Assembly: GCA_018823045.1 (NCBI GenBank)
Contig: JAHJIX010000009.1
Span: forward strand, 1-45,840
Direction: 5' to 3'
Source: Patescibacteria group bacterium
GTDB lineage: Bacteria > Patescibacteriota > Patescibacteriia > Magasanikbacterales > UBA922
Length of the DNA: 45,840 nt
A model generated the notes under the pieces. The model saw nothing but the letters and a program-made list of their open reading frames with translations. It was not told the origin of the DNA and made no database searches. The first letter of the stretch is position 1. Every line of letters begins with the position of its first letter. Below are positions 6,616 through 45,840 of this stretch, in pieces. A program made the translations under genes and the position numbers.

Positions 6616-7356
6616 TTAACGTGACTCCTGCACTGCACCCAGCAGTGAAATTAATGAATCATAGTGTGTTGACGCTCCTCCAACTAACACTCCATCAACA
6701 CAGTCTAATTTAATATATGATACCACATTTTGAGCATCAACACTACCTCCATATAATAATGGAACCTCTGCATCTGTGTATGATTTGATCTCTTTTCGAA
6801 TGAGCGTATGCATTTCTATGACATCTTGAGGCGCACATTGCTTACCTGTCCCAATAGCCCACACTGGCTCATAAGCAATAATCAATTGGTTATCTTTTAC
6901 ACTCAAACCCTCAAGTGCTTTCATAATCTGCTTTTTTATACGATATTCCCTATTCCCTTCTTCCAAATCTTTTGTTGTCTCTCCTATACAGACAACAGGC
7001 GTTATTCCTGAATCAAAACAGGCTTCGATTTTTTTTCGCACGACAGTATTTGTTTCAGCAAAAATATATCGTCGTTCAGAATGACCTACCAATGCATAAG
7101 AAAGTCCAATTTCTTTTGCTATAAAAGCTGAAACAGCACCTGTGTATGCCCCAGCGGGCGTCCAAGCGAGATTTTGTGCACCAACTTGTATTGCAGTATC
7201 CTCTAATAGTTCTTTTACTGCAGCAGTTGTAATCATATTTGGAAATACTCCTAAAGTTACATCATCTGGAATAGACACGGTCTGCAATTTTCTGGCAAGA
7301 GCAAGCCCTTCTTTATGTGTAAGATACATCTTCCAATTGGCAAAAATATACGTCAT
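6616..7356 (-). CDS. tpiA: Triosephosphate isomerase
   Basis: 246 residues from the chosen start MTYIFANWKMYLTHKEG. The enzyme interconverts dihydroxyacetone phosphate and glyceraldehyde 3-phosphate in glycolysis. Visible motifs are ANWKMY (Asn and Lys), LVGHSERR (electrophilic His), AYEPVWAIGTGK (catalytic Glu, flexible loop 6), LYGGSVDAQNV and DGVLVGGAS. The ORF track begins 26 codons earlier, but that extension overlaps the M16 peptidase gene and adds sequence foreign to the family, so the ATG at 7356 is preferred. No clear Shine-Dalgarno is seen, as for several genes here. Confidence 0.95.
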   Translation of the reverse strand: MTYIFANWKMYLTHKEGLALARKLQTVSIPDDVTLGVFPNMITTAAVKELLEDTAIQVGAQNLAWTPAGAYTGAVSAFIAKEIGLSYALVGHSERRYIFAETNTVVRKKIEACFDSGITPVVCIGETTKDLEEGNREYRIKKQIMKALEGLSVKDNQLIIAYEPVWAIGTGKQCAPQDVIEMHTLIRKEIKSYTDAEVPLLYGGSVDAQNVVSYIKLDCVDGVLVGGASTHYDSLISLLGAVQESR

Positions 7357-7381
7357 ATACGTGAGATAAGAAATAAAAATA

Positions 7382-8647
7382 TTACAGATGTTTGAGTATA
7401 TCTTTTTCTTGTGCATCTCCAATAATGGCAACACGCATCTGTGTTAATTTAAAGATATTTTTAGCGACTGCCACAACTTCTTCTTCAGTTACTGATTCAA
7501 GTGCTTGTACATATTGCTCTGGTGTTTGCATATTTCTTGCAAACAACGCCTCTTTTGCATACCAATTTGCTCCAAAACTTGAATTTTCTTGTGCCAAGGT
7601 TAATGCACCACGTACATGTGTTTTTGCATCTTGTAATTCTCGTTTAGAAATGCCTTTTGTTATAAATTTTTCAATTTCAGATTTTACTACATTAATTGCT
7701 TTTCCAATATTTTTTGGGTCAAGACCTGCACGCACATACACATATCCCGTATCACGCAATGTTTCTCTTCCCATATTAATCATATAAGCCAGCCCCCTTC
7801 TCTCACGAATTTGAATAAACAAACGTGAACTCATTGACCCGCCTAAAATACTACTCATAATAGCAACGGCTGGATTTTCTTTTGCATTATAATCAAATGC
7901 AGGAAATCCAATCATCAATTGTGCTTGATCTGTTGGTTTTTGTTGAATGACTAAACGATCTTTTTTCACTACAGAACCGAACGTAGCAGGTTTATATGTT
8001 TGTATTGGTTTTCGTGTATCTTTTTCTTCTCCAAAATAGGACTCTACCAATGCTTCTGTTTTTTCATCAACATTTCCTGCAATCACAATCTTCATATTAC
8101 TTGGTTGGTAATATTTTTCTTTGTATGCGAGTACGTCATCACGCTTATAGCTTTTCACATGCTCTACTGTTCCTGCAATATCTCTCCCTAACGGACAACC
8201 CGCAAATAATAACTCTTCAAAAATAGTCTCAATATTCATCATTGGATTATCATTGTACATGCGGATCTCTTCAATAATTGGTCCTTTTTCTCTTTCCATC
8301 TCTTTTGGATCAAATATAGAACCAAATAACATATCTGACAATATGTCTAGTGCAGTCTTTACATATACTCGGTCGGTTTTAATATAATATCCTGTATATT
8401 CTTTCCCGGTAAAGGCATTATATTGTGCACCTAAACGATCAATTTCCCTCATGAGTATTTGTGTATTTTTTCTTTTTTTTGTTCCTTTAAACATGAGATG
8501 CTCAATATAATGAGATACCCCTGATAATTTTTCTGATTCATAACGAGATCCCACAGGATACATCACCATCACAGTTACTGCTTGTGTATCTTGCTGCGGC
8601 GCTAAAATAATTTGGGCTTTATTTGCTAATGTATATGTTTTGTACAT
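7382..8647 (-). CDS. M16-family zinc metallopeptidase (pitrilysin/processing-peptidase type)
   Basis: 421 residues with the inverted zinc motif HYIEH at 46-50 and the distal Glu in PIIEEIRMYNDNP (about 120-130). The C-terminal half is the structural M16 domain (YNAKENPAVAIMSSILGGSMSSRLFIQIRE), including the conserved RxxxGLAY-like RERRGLAYMIN. Single-subunit bacterial enzymes of this size degrade peptides or trim proteins. No signal peptide is visible, so it is probably cytoplasmic. It is the first gene of a minus-strand run continuing into tpiA 25 bases later. Confidence 0.9.
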   Translation of the reverse strand: MYKTYTLANKAQIILAPQQDTQAVTVMVMYPVGSRYESEKLSGVSHYIEHLMFKGTKKRKNTQILMREIDRLGAQYNAFTGKEYTGYYIKTDRVYVKTALDILSDMLFGSIFDPKEMEREKGPIIEEIRMYNDNPMMNIETIFEELLFAGCPLGRDIAGTVEHVKSYKRDDVLAYKEKYYQPSNMKIVIAGNVDEKTEALVESYFGEEKDTRKPIQTYKPATFGSVVKKDRLVIQQKPTDQAQLMIGFPAFDYNAKENPAVAIMSSILGGSMSSRLFIQIRERRGLAYMINMGRETLRDTGYVYVRAGLDPKNIGKAINVVKSEIEKFITKGISKRELQDAKTHVRGALTLAQENSSFGANWYAKEALFARNMQTPEQYVQALESVTEEEVVAVAKNIFKLTQMRVAIIGDAQEKDILKHL

Positions 8648-8674
8648 AAAATATAGATAATATGAAATAAAATA

Positions 8675-10048
8675 CTAGAGTTTTTCTTGAATATACCCAA
8701 CGAGCTCCTCAATCTTCACTCTCTCCTGTTCCATAGTATCTCTATCTCGCACCGTCACGGTATCATCTTCAAGTGAATCAAAATCAATAGTCACACAGAA
8801 TGGCGTACCGATTTCATCTTGTCTACGATAACGTTTTCCAACATTTCCATTATCATCAAACTCCGCTTTGAAAATCATTGAAAGATTTGCAAATACTTCT
8901 TCCGCCTTCGCTACCAATTCTGGCTTATTTTTGAGAAGTGGAAAAACAGCGACCGTAACAGGGGCAAGATTTCTTGGAAATTTCATCACAATGCGACTTC
9001 CCTCTTCGAGTTCTTCTTCAGTGTACGCAGCCACAAGCGCTGTCAAAATAGATCGATCAAGCCCAAAAGTTGGTTCAATCACATGAGGAACAAAGCGACG
9101 ATTATTTGCGGCATCAAAGTATTCTAACTTCGTTCCACTCGCTTCAGCATGTGCTTTCAGATCAAAATCTGTTCGATGTGCAAGACCAAAAAGCTCTTTA
9201 AACCCTCCAAATGGAAAATTATACTCAATATCCACAGTTTTCTTTGAGTAATGTGATAATTTTTCTTGTGCATGTTCATAACGTCGAATATCTTCTGGTT
9301 TTGCACCAAGCGCCATGGCAAATTGTTCTTGTTTAAGAAGCCAATCTTCAAATAATTCTTCCCATGCTAATTCTGGATCAATGAAATATTCAATTTCCAT
9401 TTGTTCAAATTCACGAAGACGAAAAATGAAGTTTCCCGCAACGATTTCATTTCGGAAAGCCTTCCCAATTTGAGCAATACCAAAAGGTACCTTCACACGA
9501 GAAGAATCAACAACATTTTTAAATTCAATAAAAATAGCTCCAGCCGTTTCTGGACGAAGATAGGCTATGTTTTCTTCCCCACCTTCAGTCGTATTCATTT
9601 CTGTTTTAAACATAAGATTAAACACACGAACTTCTGACCAATCTGAAGAACCACAAACTTTACATTTTACTTTTTCGTTTACGAGAACTTCTTGCATTTT
9701 CTCAAGTTCTCCTTCAAAATCTTGACCCGTTGCTTCTTCTACAAGATGATCAGCTCTGAAACGCTTTTTGCACTGTTTACAATCTACCATGGCATCATTA
9801 AATCCTCCCACATGTCCAGAAGCTTCCCAAAGTTTTGGGTGAAGGATAATAGGCCCATCGATTCCAACCATGTCTCTTCGGCTTGAAACAAATGTTTTCC
9901 ACCAAAGATCTTTGATATTTTTTTTGAGTTCTGATCCATAAGGACCATAGGTATATGAATTGGCAAATCCTCCATAGATTTCACTAGCAGGAAATACAAA
10001 TCCTCGACGTTTACAAAGGGCTACCAACTTCTGCATTTTGTCTTGCAT
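8675..10048 (-). CDS. glyQS: Glycyl-tRNA synthetase (homodimeric alpha2, eukaryote-like type)
   Basis: 457 residues. This class II synthetase charges tRNA-Gly. The start KRRGFVFPASEIYGG, the motif 2 region GKAFRNEI...FRLREFEQMEIEYF (about 195-222), and EPTFGLDRS for motif 3 define the alpha2 GlyRS rather than the alpha2-beta2 GlyQ/GlyS form. Two zinc-knuckle pairs are present (CKQC at 90-93, CKVC at 129-132). The C-terminal anticodon-binding domain ends the protein. A T-box riboswitch occupies the leader, so expression should rise when tRNA-Gly is uncharged. The coiled-coil gene lies upstream on the same strand. Confidence 0.95.
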   Translation of the reverse strand: MQDKMQKLVALCKRRGFVFPASEIYGGFANSYTYGPYGSELKKNIKDLWWKTFVSSRRDMVGIDGPIILHPKLWEASGHVGGFNDAMVDCKQCKKRFRADHLVEEATGQDFEGELEKMQEVLVNEKVKCKVCGSSDWSEVRVFNLMFKTEMNTTEGGEENIAYLRPETAGAIFIEFKNVVDSSRVKVPFGIAQIGKAFRNEIVAGNFIFRLREFEQMEIEYFIDPELAWEELFEDWLLKQEQFAMALGAKPEDIRRYEHAQEKLSHYSKKTVDIEYNFPFGGFKELFGLAHRTDFDLKAHAEASGTKLEYFDAANNRRFVPHVIEPTFGLDRSILTALVAAYTEEELEEGSRIVMKFPRNLAPVTVAVFPLLKNKPELVAKAEEVFANLSMIFKAEFDDNGNVGKRYRRQDEIGTPFCVTIDFDSLEDDTVTVRDRDTMEQERVKIEELVGYIQEKL

Positions 10049-12008: not shown

Positions 12009-13091
12009 TTATTCCTTTGGAGGGATAGTAAACCCTAAATACAACTGGTTGTCAATACTTGGGTGCACACGCAATGCTGTTGGTAATTGTTTTGATGGTA
12101 ATTCTTTCGTAATCCAACTTACCCCCCCATCAATACTTTTATAAAAAGTAGAACGATCATTAATGGTTGCTGTATAATAAATCTCATTTTTATTTTGTGG
12201 ATTAACATCAAATCCATAAATCTTTGCACTTCCAGCAGGATGAATTAATTCTAACGTCTCCCAACTATCACCTGCATTTTCAGACACATGAATACCATAA
12301 GTAGACACATAATATAAATAATGTTCTTTTCCTGTATATGGAATAAAACGTCTAAATTCAAGGGCATCAGATAAATCTGCAATATCTTCATTAGCACTTA
12401 CCCATGTTTGTCCTGCATCAAAAGATCTATACATGCCATATTCTTTTGTCGCAACATACACACGATCTTTTACAAATGGGTCAACAAAGGCTTCTGCAAT
12501 TGGATAGCGAAATTGAAACACCGTTTGCCAACTTACTCCCGTATCTTTACTCACAAGAAATCTTCCTTTTGTAGTTGCTAAATATACATCATATGGTGCT
12601 ACCGGACTAATAAGTACTGACACAACATTATCGCTACTTGATTCCCGATGAACTTCTGACCATGTTCGAGTACAATCAGTACTCTTATATACTAATTTCC
12701 CATTTGTTACATAGAGTGTACATTTATCTTTTGGATGCACCGCTACTCCATAAATAAATCCTTGCGTTAATGATGGTGACAATGGCTGTTGCCAAGTTAT
12801 TCCATTATCATGCGTAAAAAACAACCCATGACCACGAGATGCCCAATACATAGTGCTAGGATCTTGTGGATCATCAAAAATACGATACACACTCACCCCA
12901 GACATATTCTTTATTCCATCAGACTTTGGCAACGTTGATACAGGCTGCCAACTTTCTCCTTTATTGCTCGATGCAAACATGCCAGCAGGCCCACTACTAT
13001 TAGAAGACGAAGACCCAAAAGAAACACACCCTTGTCCTATAAATAAAAGGCTCAGTGCACACAAACTCAATAGACGAACATATGTTTTCAT
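12009..13091 (-). CDS. Lipoprotein with BNR/Asp-box beta-propeller (sortilin/Ycf48-like)
   Basis: 360 residues. The signal peptide ends in a lipobox, FIGQGC (Cys22), so the protein should be lipid-anchored. The body consists of about seven blades, each with an Asp-box-like S-x-D-x-G-x-[ST]-W: SSNKGESW, THDNGITW, SKDTGVSW, SFDAGQTW, SENAGDSW and SIDGGVSW among them. Such propellers occur in sialidases, sortilin and Ycf48. Here there is no catalytic sialidase signature (no RIP motif), so a binding or assembly role is more likely. It lies between holB and frr on the minus strand. Confidence 0.85.
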   Translation of the reverse strand: MKTYVRLLSLCALSLLFIGQGCVSFGSSSSNSSGPAGMFASSNKGESWQPVSTLPKSDGIKNMSGVSVYRIFDDPQDPSTMYWASRGHGLFFTHDNGITWQQPLSPSLTQGFIYGVAVHPKDKCTLYVTNGKLVYKSTDCTRTWSEVHRESSSDNVVSVLISPVAPYDVYLATTKGRFLVSKDTGVSWQTVFQFRYPIAEAFVDPFVKDRVYVATKEYGMYRSFDAGQTWVSANEDIADLSDALEFRRFIPYTGKEHYLYYVSTYGIHVSENAGDSWETLELIHPAGSAKIYGFDVNPQNKNEIYYTATINDRSTFYKSIDGGVSWITKELPSKQLPTALRVHPSIDNQLYLGFTIPPKE

Positions 13092-30756: not shown

Positions 30757-31260
30757 CTATAAAGCCCTCCTGATTCGATACTCTGGTGGAGCTAATTTCT
30801 CGACCAATGGCAAATTGCCGTTCACCTCATGGATGGTCAAGAGACGCACGATCGCGGCATAGATGATGGTGTCTGGATTAGCGCTTCCATTGGCCCAGAA
30901 TCGATATTCCAACTCTCGAACCAATTTTCGTGCGAAGTCATTCCTGACGAATGCATGTTGGTTGTGAGCCAACTGCACCACACCGATGATCGGGGGCTTG
31001 TAGACCTCGTGGAAAAGCTCTGTGAACTCACTGATTTCCATCTGTGAGAACATGGGATCGATTAAAACCCCCAAGAGCGAGTGTTGGACCCGGCGGAGGA
31101 CATCCCGAGATGGGAAATTCGCCAAGAGAGGAAACTTGACCCGCGGAAATTTTTCCCGCAAGAGTAAGCTTTGGGCATATTCACCGAAAAGACTCTGGAT
31201 AGCCAAGCTATCCGAGACAATTGGCAACAAGATGACGTCACTGACGCCGTTACTACTCAT
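30757..31260 (-). CDS. Orphan soluble protein of unknown function (167 aa)
   Basis: 167 residues with no signal peptide or membrane helix and no recognised family; it begins MSSNGVSDVILLPIVSD. The middle looks helical (EFTELFHEVYKPPIIGVVQLAHNQHAF, RKLVRELEYRFWANG). Codon use is richer in G+C than its neighbours: bases 30841-30900 are 33/60 G+C, against 25/60 in the GT2 gene at 30361-30420. It is a single-gene unit with a TTGTTG-17-TATAAT promoter, AAAGGA before the ATG and its own terminator. An in-gene hairpin (31193-31216) has a 10-bp stem. The leader shares motifs with the next orphan gene. Confidence 0.72.
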   Translation of the reverse strand: MSSNGVSDVILLPIVSDSLAIQSLFGEYAQSLLLREKFPRVKFPLLANFPSRDVLRRVQHSLLGVLIDPMFSQMEISEFTELFHEVYKPPIIGVVQLAHNQHAFVRNDFARKLVRELEYRFWANGSANPDTIIYAAIVRLLTIHEVNGNLPLVEKLAPPEYRIRRAL

Positions 31261-31444: not shown

Positions 31445-31882
31445 CTAGGAAATTGTGTTCATGGTCATCGCTACTAATTGATTAATGAGTTCATATCGAT
31501 CACCTGCACTGAGGTGAGAAAATTGATGATCCACAAACTGTGCAGCCCCCTGCTCCAAATAAGACCTCAGCAGTTCGGGATCGGCGCGTAAAACTTGCGG
31601 TGTAAAGTGATGCTCCACACCATACATTTTACTCGCCAGAGAAACCAAGAGTCGTTCGAAGAACGGATCCCAAGCGTTTCCCTTTCGGAAAGTAGCCAAG
31701 GTTGGCACCTCGGACTTCTGCGCAGCGGCATCTTTCATCAGTCTGATGAAGAGACCTTTATGTCTACGCATCCGCGCGTTAAACTCGAGAAAGTACTCTT
31801 CAAAATTGGCCGGTTTTTTCTGATCCTCAGAAATCAAAAGAGCCATGGGATCGGCGGCGATCGCGACGTTTGAGCTAAACAT
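31445..31882 (-). CDS. Orphan soluble protein of unknown function (145 aa)
   Basis: 145 residues, helical and charged (NFEEYFLEFNARMRRHKGLFIRLMKDAAAQ; ADPELLRSYLEQGAAQF). No signal peptide is certain, although the start MFSSNVAIAADPMALLI is mildly hydrophobic. No family is recognised. It is G+C-rich relative to the window (33/60 at 31681-31740). It has a consensus promoter TTGACA-17-TATACT, AGGAGA before the ATG, and its own terminator. It shares leader motifs (TGTATAGA and TTTATGTTGT on the plus strand) with the 167-residue orphan, though the proteins are not clearly related. Confidence 0.72.
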   Translation of the reverse strand: MFSSNVAIAADPMALLISEDQKKPANFEEYFLEFNARMRRHKGLFIRLMKDAAAQKSEVPTLATFRKGNAWDPFFERLLVSLASKMYGVEHHFTPQVLRADPELLRSYLEQGAAQFVDHQFSHLSAGDRYELINQLVAMTMNTIS

Positions 31883-36310: not shown

Positions 36311-36373
36311 CTCATAACTCATATCACGTAACTCGTAACTTTTGCGATACGAGTTATGCGTTAAGAGTTACAC
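36311..36373. repeat. Repeat D (GTAAC/GTTACACG type), copy near dnaK
   Basis: An A+T-rich imperfect palindrome CGTAACTCGTAA...GATACGAGTTATGCG followed by GCGTTAAGAGTTACACG. The last motif recurs at 37555-37573 (GCGTTAAAAGTTACACG), and related words lie at 36921-36950. It overlaps the hsp20 stop codon. Confidence 0.55.
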
Positions 36374-36904: not shown

Positions 36905-36942
36905 TAATTTTGTATTTTTTGGTACGTGTTACGTGATATGTG

Positions 36943-37497
36943 TTACGTGTTTTTACAAACCACAACTCTCGCAGCTCTTAAAACCTTTTCCCCTGCAAGA
37001 TATCCTCCCGCAAGCTCACGGATAATTTGTCCATCGGCGTGTCCCTCACTTGCTTCTTCACTTACCGCTTCATGCAAATTTGGGTCAAACATCTTTCCAA
37101 CAACTTCCATTTCCTTTACACCATGAGATTCGAGGACATCTCCGAATTGCTTCATGATAAATTCAATTCCCTTTTTCCAATTTTCCCAAGAAGAATTTTC
37201 TTCTCCAGCAGGATGTTTGAATGCTGTTCGGAAGTTTTCATATATAGGAATAAATTCTTCGAGGATTTGAATCTCACTCATCCGAGCCCATTCACTTCTT
37301 TGCTTACTTGTTTCCATTTGCAAATTTTTGTAATCCGCTTGCGCCCGCATCCAACCTGATTTGTATTCTTCGCAGTTTAGACAATCTTCTGGGCGTTCTT
37401 CTTTTTGAGCAGGCATATCTACTACCTCTACCCCATCTTCATTTAGAATATCCTCTAATGGATTTTTATCTTGTTGTTTTTTCTTATTTTTTGGCAT
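36943..37497 (-). CDS. grpE: GrpE nucleotide-exchange factor
   Basis: 184 residues from MPKNKKKQQDKNPLED. GrpE releases ADP from DnaK. The helical part has WMRAQADYKNLQMETSKQRSEW and EFIPIYENFRTAF. The C-terminal beta domain has FDPNLHEAVSEEASEGHADGQIIRELAGGYLAGEKVLRAARVVV. The track start at 37548 adds 17 residues of repeat-derived sequence. The last codons (NT, TAA) fall in another GTAAC-type repeat. It lies between hrcA and hsp20. Confidence 0.95.
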   Translation of the reverse strand: MPKNKKKQQDKNPLEDILNEDGVEVVDMPAQKEERPEDCLNCEEYKSGWMRAQADYKNLQMETSKQRSEWARMSEIQILEEFIPIYENFRTAFKHPAGEENSSWENWKKGIEFIMKQFGDVLESHGVKEMEVVGKMFDPNLHEAVSEEASEGHADGQIIRELAGGYLAGEKVLRAARVVVCKNT

Positions 37498-43406: not shown

Positions 43407-43435
43407 TTGCCATTTTTACATATATATGCTATGGT
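43407..43435 (+). promoter_or_regulatory. Promoter of the receiver-domain orphan gene
   Basis: TTGCCA (43407-43412), 17 bases, TATGGT (43430-43435). The start of transcription is expected near 43442, immediately before TGTCTGCTGAACATG. Confidence 0.75.
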
Positions 43436-43443
43436 AGCGTCGT

Positions 43444-43461
43444 TGTCTGCTGAACATGTCA
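43444..43461 (+). promoter_or_regulatory. 5'-end element complementary to the 3' stem-loop
   Basis: TGTCTGCTGAACATGTCA at the predicted mRNA 5' end is complementary at 17 of 18 positions to 43833-43850, which includes the whole loop of the 3' hairpin. Confidence 0.8.
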
Positions 43462-43482
43462 AACACAAAGGAAAATGATACG

Positions 43483-43830
43483 ATGAAGAAAAGAATTCTC
43501 TACATCGACAACGCTCCCATGATCGCCCTCGTAATACAGCGTATCTTGGGAGAAAAATACAAGATCCTGTTTGCCTCTTCAGTACAAGAAGCACGGCAAA
43601 TCTCGAATACACAGACGATTTCACTCGTCATCGCTGAACCATACATCGATGAAGAGGGAGTATTAAACTTCCTCAACCAAAAGGGAGGGGGAACTTCCAT
43701 ACTCATTTTGACCGGATCACTCCCCAAATTGGGATACTTTTACTCTCAATTGAGAGTAAAATACACCACTCTGGAAAAACCCTTTAATACGAAGGGTTTC
43801 ATCAAAATCGTAGAAGAACTGACAAGCTAA
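43483..43830 (+). CDS. Single-domain response-regulator receiver, Glu at the phospho-acceptor site
   Basis: 115 residues from MKKRILYIDNAPM; AAAGGA lies 10 bases upstream. The track start at 43456 lies in the complementary leader element and has no ribosome site, so it is less likely. The CheY-like fold shows ILYIDN (D9, N10), SLVIAEPYID (position 52, normally Asp, is Glu), ILILTGS (Thr77) and LEKPF (Lys99-Pro100). Without the Asp it should not be phosphorylated, and Glu may imitate the active state. There is no output domain and no kinase next to it. A 24-bp palindrome lies in the coding region. Confidence 0.82.
   Translation: MKKRILYIDNAPMIALVIQRILGEKYKILFASSVQEARQISNTQTISLVIAEPYIDEEGVLNFLNQKGGGTSILILTGSLPKLGYFYSQLRVKYTTLEKPFNTKGFIKIVEELTS
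43738..43761. repeat. 24-bp perfect palindrome inside the receiver gene
   Basis: TTTTACTCTCAA followed by its exact inverse TTGAGAGTAAAA. It encodes residues in the alpha4-beta5 part of the receiver domain (FYSQLRVK). It can form a hairpin or serve as a dyad protein-binding site. Confidence 0.9.
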
Positions 43831-43859
43831 GATGTCATGTTCAGCAGACAGACATCTTA
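43828..43859 (+). other. 3' stem-loop whose 14-nt loop matches the mRNA 5' end
   Basis: TAAGATGTC / GACATCTTA is a 9-bp stem beginning at the stop codon. The loop ATGTTCAGCAGACA is the exact complement of the leader bases 43444-43457. No T run follows, so it is not the terminator, which comes 10 bases later. Confidence 0.85.
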
Positions 43860-43868
43860 CTATATACC

Positions 43869-43903
43869 AAAACACCCCACCTTCATCGGTAGGGTGTTTT
43901 TTA
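43869..43903. terminator. Terminator of the receiver gene and metK
   Basis: AAAACACCC ... GGGTGTTTT with an inner ACC/GGT pairing, and T runs on both strands. It lies between convergent genes. Confidence 0.8.
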
Positions 43904-43913
43904 CTGTTCTTTT

Positions 43914-45242: not shown

Positions 45243-45840
45243 GAGTAGAAATTGGATGTATGTTTTAAACTAATGATGGAGAATGGCATACTGTTGCGGA
45301 TCTACAAAAGTAGAAATTGGATGTATGTTTTAAACGATAATTCAGAAAACCAAACAGAGATTATCTACAAAAGTAGAAATTGGATGTATGTTTTAAACCA
45401 AGCTCGCATTGTTCTAGTATTTCCAATCTACAAAAGTAGAAATTGGATGTATGTTTTAAACATTTGGATGAAGCGAGCGTACCACAAATCTACAAAAGTA
45501 GAAATTGGATGTATGTTTTAAACTATATTCTGCTTAAACAATCGCACTATGATCTACAAAAGTAGAAATTGGATGTATGTTTTAAACGCGTTGCTAGCAA
45601 GGACAATCCACAAATCTACAAAAGTAGAAATTGGATGTATGTTTTAAACAATAATGCAATACACAGGACTAAAAGAATCTACAAAAGTAGAAATTGGATG
45701 TATGTTTTAAACTATACTCGAACTAGATGATTTGCATGAAATCTACAAAAGTAGAAATTGGATGTATGTTTTAAACAAATTTATGACCACCAAAGCTACC
45801 CAAATCTACAAAAGTAGAAATTGGATGTATGTTTTAAACA
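45235..45840 (-). CRISPR. Type V-A (Cas12a-type) CRISPR array, trailer end, cut by window edge
   Basis: Ten 36-bp repeats, nine spacers of 26-29 bp. Repeats start at 45235, 45300, 45363, 45426, 45488, 45552, 45614, 45677, 45741 and 45804. Nine are identical (ATCTACAAAAGTAGAAATTG then GATGTATGTTTTAAAC). On the minus strand the repeat ends AATTTCTACTTTTGTAGAT, the Cas12a crRNA handle with stem TCTAC/GTAGA. The leftmost copy has four mismatches, all in the handle end, marking it as the terminal repeat, so transcription runs right to left and the leader lies beyond base 45840. No cas gene is in the window. Confidence 0.97.

Follow-up and report, generated by a model that had tools for sequence, protein, structure and literature searches.

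Complementary transcript ends in a small receiver-like gene of a Patescibacteria genome and in related genes

Complementary ends of the predicted window transcript

In a 45,840-nucleotide stretch of a Patescibacteria genome (the whole stretch analysed, hereafter the window), we found that the predicted mRNA of a small gene begins with a segment complementary to the loop of its own 3′ hairpin, and that relatives keep this pairing with other letters through compensating changes on both sides. The leader arm (43444-43461, TGTCTGCTGAACATGTCA) and the trailer arm (43833-43850, TGTCATGTTCAGCAGACA) are complementary at 17 of 18 positions (94% over 18 nt, with a spacing of 371 nt in an inverted-repeat search), the only mismatch being a T opposite a T, which confirms what a first-pass annotation of this DNA had reported for the leader and the 14-nt loop. 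The hairpin (43828-43859, plus strand, TAAGATGTC[ATGTTCAGCAGACA]GACATCTTA) begins at the stop codon and has a 9-bp stem and a 14-nt loop; the trailer arm consists of the full loop and the final four bases of the 5′ strand of the stem. The annotation had also argued that such a match is unexpected by chance, and indeed only 1 in 100,000 dinucleotide shuffles of leader and trailer equalled its score. Among the 1133 open reading frames of the genome that were scanned, the window gene is one of the top two leader-trailer matches, and its arm is found at no second place in the genome.

The arms lie close to the predicted ends of the transcript. A sigma-70 type promoter (43407-43435, plus strand, TTGCCA-17-TATGGT, with a TG before the −10 as in extended −10 promoters; 9/12 in a consensus scan) predicts a start at about 43442, and since the promoter ends at 43435, the leader arm would begin within a few bases of the mRNA 5′ end, as the annotation had proposed. 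Downstream of the hairpin, an inverted repeat with a T run indicates an intrinsic terminator (43869-43905, plus strand, hairpin at 43869-43900). Weak minus-strand promoter-like sites in the region of the gene are consensus matches only. From the sequence, the start codon is likely the ATG at 43483 (MKKRILYIDN), which is preceded by the likely ribosome-binding site AAAGGA (43467-43472, plus strand), and not the ATG at 43456. With this start, the leader arm precedes the ribosome-binding site and ends about 21 nt before the ATG; it is thus unlikely that the pairing hides the start codon at 43456, as had been suggested. The local 3′ hairpin has a predicted energy of −13.6 kcal/mol (z −3.8) and the 5′-3′ duplex one of −29.2 kcal/mol, and in predicted folds of the full transcript, the 5′ arm pairs with the 3′UTR at a probability of 1.0.

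The coding region (43483-43830, plus strand) encodes a protein of 115 aa that matches PF00072 (Response_reg) at 17.0 bits (E 0.0067), missing the curated cut-off of 30.2. A homologue at the same site in G014, a genome of the same family, scores 71.3 bits against this model, so the window protein, despite its own score, is best read as a diverged stand-alone receiver domain. This homologue is the only protein match of the window product among 192 related genomes (26% identity), and its gene is positioned as the window gene is, between uppP and metK. A genome of the same genus (G001) is without the gene and has an ABC-transporter-like gene in its place. A candidate link to phages was rejected, as the viral-contig match of the window protein turned out to be a frame antisense to a terminase-like gene; two further scans gave one weak match each. 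In Rfam, neither the window region nor nine related loci gave a match at the gathering score, with weak unrelated matches only.

The predicted end helix in relatives

The annotation had proposed a search for other genes with matching leader and trailer elements, and the same architecture, in other letters, does occur in relatives and elsewhere in this genome. Of 12 small genes between uppP and metK, 8 carry arms and 4 are without them. Besides the window gene, the armed receivers at the site are those of G014 (TGTCCGGTCGGCCTCC at the gene start and GGAGGCCGATCGGACA past the stop codon), G034 (TGTCTGGTCAGCCTCC, 16/16), G031 (CCGGGCGGCCTCCT, 14/14), G025 (GTCCAGGCGGCCTACTCT, 17/18), and G002 (CGCCGTGCCT, 10/10), while the armed gene of G026 and G038 (GCAGGTGGAGCTGC, 14/14 in both) encodes a small membrane protein and not a receiver. 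Armed receivers are also found off this site, in G025 contig 7 (GAATCCCTGGCAGG, 14/14) and in G013 contig 16 (G013_C16; ATCCCCCGACGG, 12/12), and further candidates in the window genome are a lipoprotein-like gene with a less clear promoter (GAGCGGGGAGCTCT, 14/14) and another that has a coiled-coil-like tail (CCTAGAGGGGT, 11/11). In the receiver and membrane-protein genes, 5-10 nt separate the −10 from the beginning of the 5′ arm, and the 3′ arm of armed genes lies within a local hairpin that precedes the terminator; in a single gene, the arm is within the terminator itself. Some matches in G000 that are weaker or not so well placed, on the minus strands of L062 (CCCAAGCGCGCC) and L075 (TTGAAGATAGAAA), were left uncounted. 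A blind genome-wide scan for promoter, arm, and hairpin, which was underpowered, gave real counts equal to null counts except for a few best cases, and sampled parts of G014 and of G025 and G013 gave no additional case above null; the feature is thus rare, at about 1-3 genes per genome.

High leader-trailer scores fall on each gene's own pair. For 12 small genes chosen by their position at the uppP site, each leader was scored against every trailer, and the scores of leaders with their own trailers sum to 313, against 193 ± 17 when permuted, with none of 200,000 permutations as high (p ≤ 5e-6). The set holds two pairs of related genomes, and the cross scores within these pairs make the null higher. 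Reading frames in G044 and G030 at this site were omitted because their transcripts could not be delimited. In five homologous receivers at the site, 93.8% of cells are paired, compared with 75% in shuffles and 29-41% in slid controls, a percentage that is somewhat inflated because G025, G031, and G000 were recognised partly by their arms (the permutation test, based on selection by site, is unaffected). In the same five receivers, the check for compensating changes that the annotation had proposed found that both partners had changed in 9 of 16 pairs, and none of 500 shuffles reaches the observed values; given the small number of sequences and their common ancestry, both figures count cells and not independent events. 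Predicted folds of full transcripts give a probability of leader-3′UTR pairing of 0.97-1.0 in all 12 armed genes and of 0-0.33 at most in 4 unarmed ones.

Between G014 and G034, which belong to one genus, the helix differs by two double compensations and one change from G-C to G-U, and the odd pairs in G014 and G025 are likewise G-U. Such pairs form in RNA and not in DNA. Judging by the sequences, the covariation and the G-U pairs point to pairing in RNA and against a mobile cassette. The first suggestion of the annotation, namely that the ends of one mRNA pair and so protect or control it, is strongly supported by the covariation among homologues as far as pairing is concerned, while its effect is something that we infer.

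The genomic site has features of its own. In the family, the space upstream of uppP (L010-L039) recurrently holds orphan genes that are small and GC-rich; most encode receivers and some encode membrane proteins, and the space looks like a preferred location for genes of this type. In G014, G034, G026, and G038, the GC content of the small gene is 0.52-0.61, against 0.34-0.39 for the adjacent uppP. In L012 and L013, the 3′UTR of the membrane-protein gene contains a second short frame (MDTYDSRADLSTDGAT... or MHTYDSRADLSTDGAT...) that follows the stop codon in both genomes and extends into the 3′ arm, and which may be coding or merely reflect conserved structure.

Other repeats were seen in the window and in G000. 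Inverted repeats around an hsp20-like gene (window 36315-36337 and 36923-36945) were considered and set aside, as they are imperfect low-complexity copies of the AACACGTAACAC and AACACGTAAC types, unlike the arms. At the contig end, from 45252 to 45521 of the window and beyond, a translated unit (IYKSRNWMYVLN) is repeated, in what is probably a direct-repeat array of a CRISPR. In L074 (G000:C15:40001-60000), a small gene at 8924-9359 lies between inverted CCCCTATGAGGGG repeats, with similar repeats elsewhere in the genome; the gene appears to resemble the DUF559 endonuclease-like family, and together with its repeats it is more like a mobile cassette than the window gene is. Finally, L070 (G000:C22:1-20000) holds an inverted repeat of at least 25 nt (for example, CTGTTTCCACTCATAAATAAGTCCC) at about 14915 and 16016, some 1.1 kb apart.

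Predicted folding of the coding region

The structure of the coding region is a feature that the first-pass annotation did not contain. The predicted fold has −143 kcal/mol in the window transcript and −96 kcal/mol in its dinucleotide shuffles (z about −8), and the coding region alone still reaches a dinucleotide z of −6.4. When codons were shuffled synonymously, with both the protein and the codon usage held fixed, none of 100 shuffles folded as well. A perfect 24-nt palindrome within the coding region (TTTTACTCTCAATTGAGAGTAAAA, 43738-43761, plus strand) is paired in the predicted fold. Across all 12 armed genes, the full-length transcript has a z of −4.7 to −9.6, and all 12 coding regions beat their synonymous shuffles (z −1.9 to −4.3, with 0 to 2 of 100 shuffles as good). 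These energy models leave out ribosomes, which would unfold the coding region.

Such structure is stronger in armed genes than in ordinary ones. The mean codon-shuffle z of 35 ordinary genes of the window genome is −1.0, and they differ from the armed genes with a Mann-Whitney p of 2.7e-5. About a tenth of these ordinary genes nevertheless match the armed ones in structure, and several GC-rich orphans that have no arms surpass them, so that coding-region structure is not exclusive to armed genes. Among unarmed genes, those of G019 and G015 do not go beyond their synonymous shuffles, while G013_upp2 does. For the related genes of G026 and G038, the protein is under purifying selection (dN 0.22, dS 0.90), and the conservation of base pairs in the coding region (0.67 against 0.62 ± 0.03) is not significant. 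As conservation of individual pairs is not detectable between these two genes, it seems to be the amount of structure that is selected. Their aligned 3′UTRs look more alike than their coding regions.

Highly structured GC-rich orphans occur beyond the armed genes, with a GC content of 0.55-0.63 against a gene average of about 0.36. They include L062 (G000:C9:20001-40000) 6882-7790, 7907-9127, and 12009-12596, all on the minus strand, L083 1139-1648, and L075 7182-7976 on the minus strand. Those tested by codon shuffling are extremely structured (for instance, L062 6882-7790 folds at −500 kcal/mol, with a codon-shuffle z of −11.8), and most of the group are without clear arms. They possibly belong to a wider class of structured coding RNAs. 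In the window itself, two neighbouring GC-rich orphans on the minus strand (30757-31260 and 31445-31882) have neither a Pfam match nor arms, and the second has a z of −2.3 against codon shuffles.

Proposed capture of the 5′ end, its alternatives, and known systems

We think it rather likely that the armed genes produce a closed, structured mRNA in which the 3′ hairpin captures the 5′ end and would make it inaccessible to 5′-dependent decay, provided that the transcript ends are as predicted. In such a scheme, a short monocistronic mRNA would close on itself. The loop of the hairpin between the stop codon and the terminator would expose a sequence complementary to the 15-18 nt with which the RNA begins; the 5′ end, being free, would nucleate on this loop and then displace the hairpin, and the resulting helix of 15-18 bp would join both ends around the highly folded coding region. 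In the window gene, the models predict that the 3′ hairpin (−13.6 kcal/mol) gives way to the full duplex (−29 kcal/mol). In compact members, among them the window gene, about 13-21 nt lie between the end of the helix and the start codon downstream of it, so the ribosome could still initiate. The 5′ end would meanwhile be shielded from 5′-pyrophosphate removal and from RNase J, which could give a long-lived mRNA that needs both of its ends intact. RNase J can attack free 5′ ends. As a paired 5′ terminus is the common denominator of the armed genes, and RNase J is encoded in the window genome, we favour protection from 5′-dependent decay. The 4 unarmed genes among the 12 at the site and the same-genus genome without the gene count against this reading, as do the predicted openness of the ribosome-binding site in the window gene, which is the same with the 3′UTR as without it, the lack of conserved coding-region pairs between G026 and G038, and the omission of ribosomes from the energy models.

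A more far-reaching reading, which we offer tentatively, is that the whole mRNA, coding region included, has been selected as a compact closed RNA, with a private covarying end helix and a codon order that favours folding, much as some RNA viruses have ordered genomes. In those viruses, the excess folding is termed genome-scale ordered RNA structure (GORS). The likeness lies in coding RNA that folds beyond codon-shuffled controls; the armed genes differ in being single bacterial genes and not viral genomes. If this reading were true, compact closed RNAs could be long-lived stored messages, or could act or travel as folded particles besides coding.

Two alternatives give the end pairing a role in translation. 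It is possible, though in our view unlikely, that the pairing switches translation off, with a full-length mRNA that is inert and stable until its 3′ end is trimmed. The armed mRNAs are very structured, and their architecture is close to the 5′-3′ long-distance interaction of hok and aapA (PMC6733600), but in the window gene the helix does not include the ribosome-binding site, which remains open in the predicted fold, and the products are receivers and a membrane protein. Moreover, the 3′UTR raises, and does not lower, the predicted openness of this site in G014 (0.02 to 0.30), G031 (0.02 to 0.37), G013_C16 (0.17 to 0.41), and G002 (0.17 to 0.39).

These same increases could argue for the opposite, slightly less probable alternative, in which pairing switches translation on: a leader GGCCTCC would mask the Shine-Dalgarno sequence, and a 3′ arm GGAGGCC, present in complete mRNAs only, would unmask it, so that intact mRNAs are read. 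Leader hairpins in G031 (GCCTCCTagacAGGAGGC) and G014 (CCTCCTacgcAGGAGG) occlude the site, with the arm overlapping the masking strand, and in G013_C16 the pairing reaches into the anti-Shine-Dalgarno strand. However, this does not apply to the window gene or to G034, G025, G026, and G038, where the predicted openness is no higher; in the window gene it is 0.77 without and 0.76 with the 3′UTR, so no translational effect is predicted there. A general rule by which 3′ pairing frees the ribosome-binding site was therefore rejected, as it holds in four members and fails in the window gene. Switching on may thus be a further role confined to certain members. In G014, G031, G013_C16, and G002, the leader also conceals its Shine-Dalgarno sequence, and the capturing helix could there take up the anti-Shine-Dalgarno, so that the finished 3′ end would open the ribosome-binding site.

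It is very improbable that the arms act as DNA, that is, as terminal inverted repeats that bound a mobile or invertible cassette of one gene and that recombination keeps alike, an alternative that the annotation had raised and that the comparison speaks against. Inverted repeats do surround a single, compositionally odd gene, and conversion between the arms could mimic compensation. Yet there is no second copy in the genome, the promoter and terminator lie outside the arms, and the same uppP-metK site is used in several genera with arm letters that differ between genera but remain complementary, G-U pairs included. Transcription is also predicted to start close to the beginning of the 5′ arm, the hairpin with the 3′ arm precedes the terminator or is part of it, and the codon order favours RNA structure. 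Equally improbable is an action of the 3′ hairpin between molecules, its loop binding the 5′ ends of other copies to form dimers or to bring about dose-dependent self-silencing. A long loop complementary to a 5′ end is comparable to antisense recognition loops, but a partner in the same molecule has a far higher local concentration, and the single-molecule models are already fully paired.

The proposed capture of the 5′ end has several precedents, and the statement of the annotation that it knew of no described element of this form was too strong, since hbs, icaR, RNAIII, hok, and aapA are known, though not in this form. In Bacillus subtilis hbs, a 14-nt interaction of the 5′ and 3′UTRs protects from RNase Y, and its 3′UTR has been reported not to be conserved among close relatives (review PMC7821165). 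In Staphylococcus aureus RNAIII and icaR, the 3′UTR pairs with the leader of its own mRNA (review PMC7821165; PMC3868564). In icaR, it is a short UCCCC motif that occludes the ribosome-binding site, and RNase III cleavage follows. The mRNAs of the hok and aapA type I toxins have a 5′-3′ long-distance interaction that keeps the full-length mRNA stable and inert, together with competing leader hairpins (PMC6733600).

The window gene has complementary UTR segments, as do 5′UTR-3′UTR interacting mRNAs of the hbs, icaR, and RNAIII kind, and the armed family shows compensating changes, a stricter test than these cases have passed. As in hbs, the UTRs of one mRNA pair over a similar length, with protection as the proposed role; unlike in hbs, covariation keeps the pairing across genera, and the paired segment is 5′-terminal, meets its partner in a hairpin loop, and is accompanied by a structured coding region. 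The window gene shares with icaR and RNAIII a 3′UTR that pairs with the leader of the same mRNA, but its helix, unlike that of icaR, is long and precedes the ribosome-binding site. Pairing between the ends of a short, stable, highly structured mRNA is also a feature of hok and aapA, and competing leader hairpins occur in both groups; here, however, the product is receiver-like and not a small hydrophobic toxin, and the ribosome-binding site is predicted not to be occluded by the pairing.

The few bacterial mRNAs closed from 5′ to 3′ that the papers cited here describe are single cases, of which hbs at least is reported to be poorly conserved (PMC7821165). The armed genes provide a natural series in reduced genomes, in which compensating changes maintain the end pairing from genus to genus and the order of codons in the coding region favours folding. 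They make it directly testable whether bacteria set the lifetime of messages through closed-loop mRNAs and whether ordinary codon choice can yield to selection on mRNA structure. The closest precedents for this series are hbs, icaR, RNAIII, and hok/aapA, from which it is set apart by covariation across genera, a 5′-terminal position, the display of the 3′ arm in a loop, and structure in the coding region.
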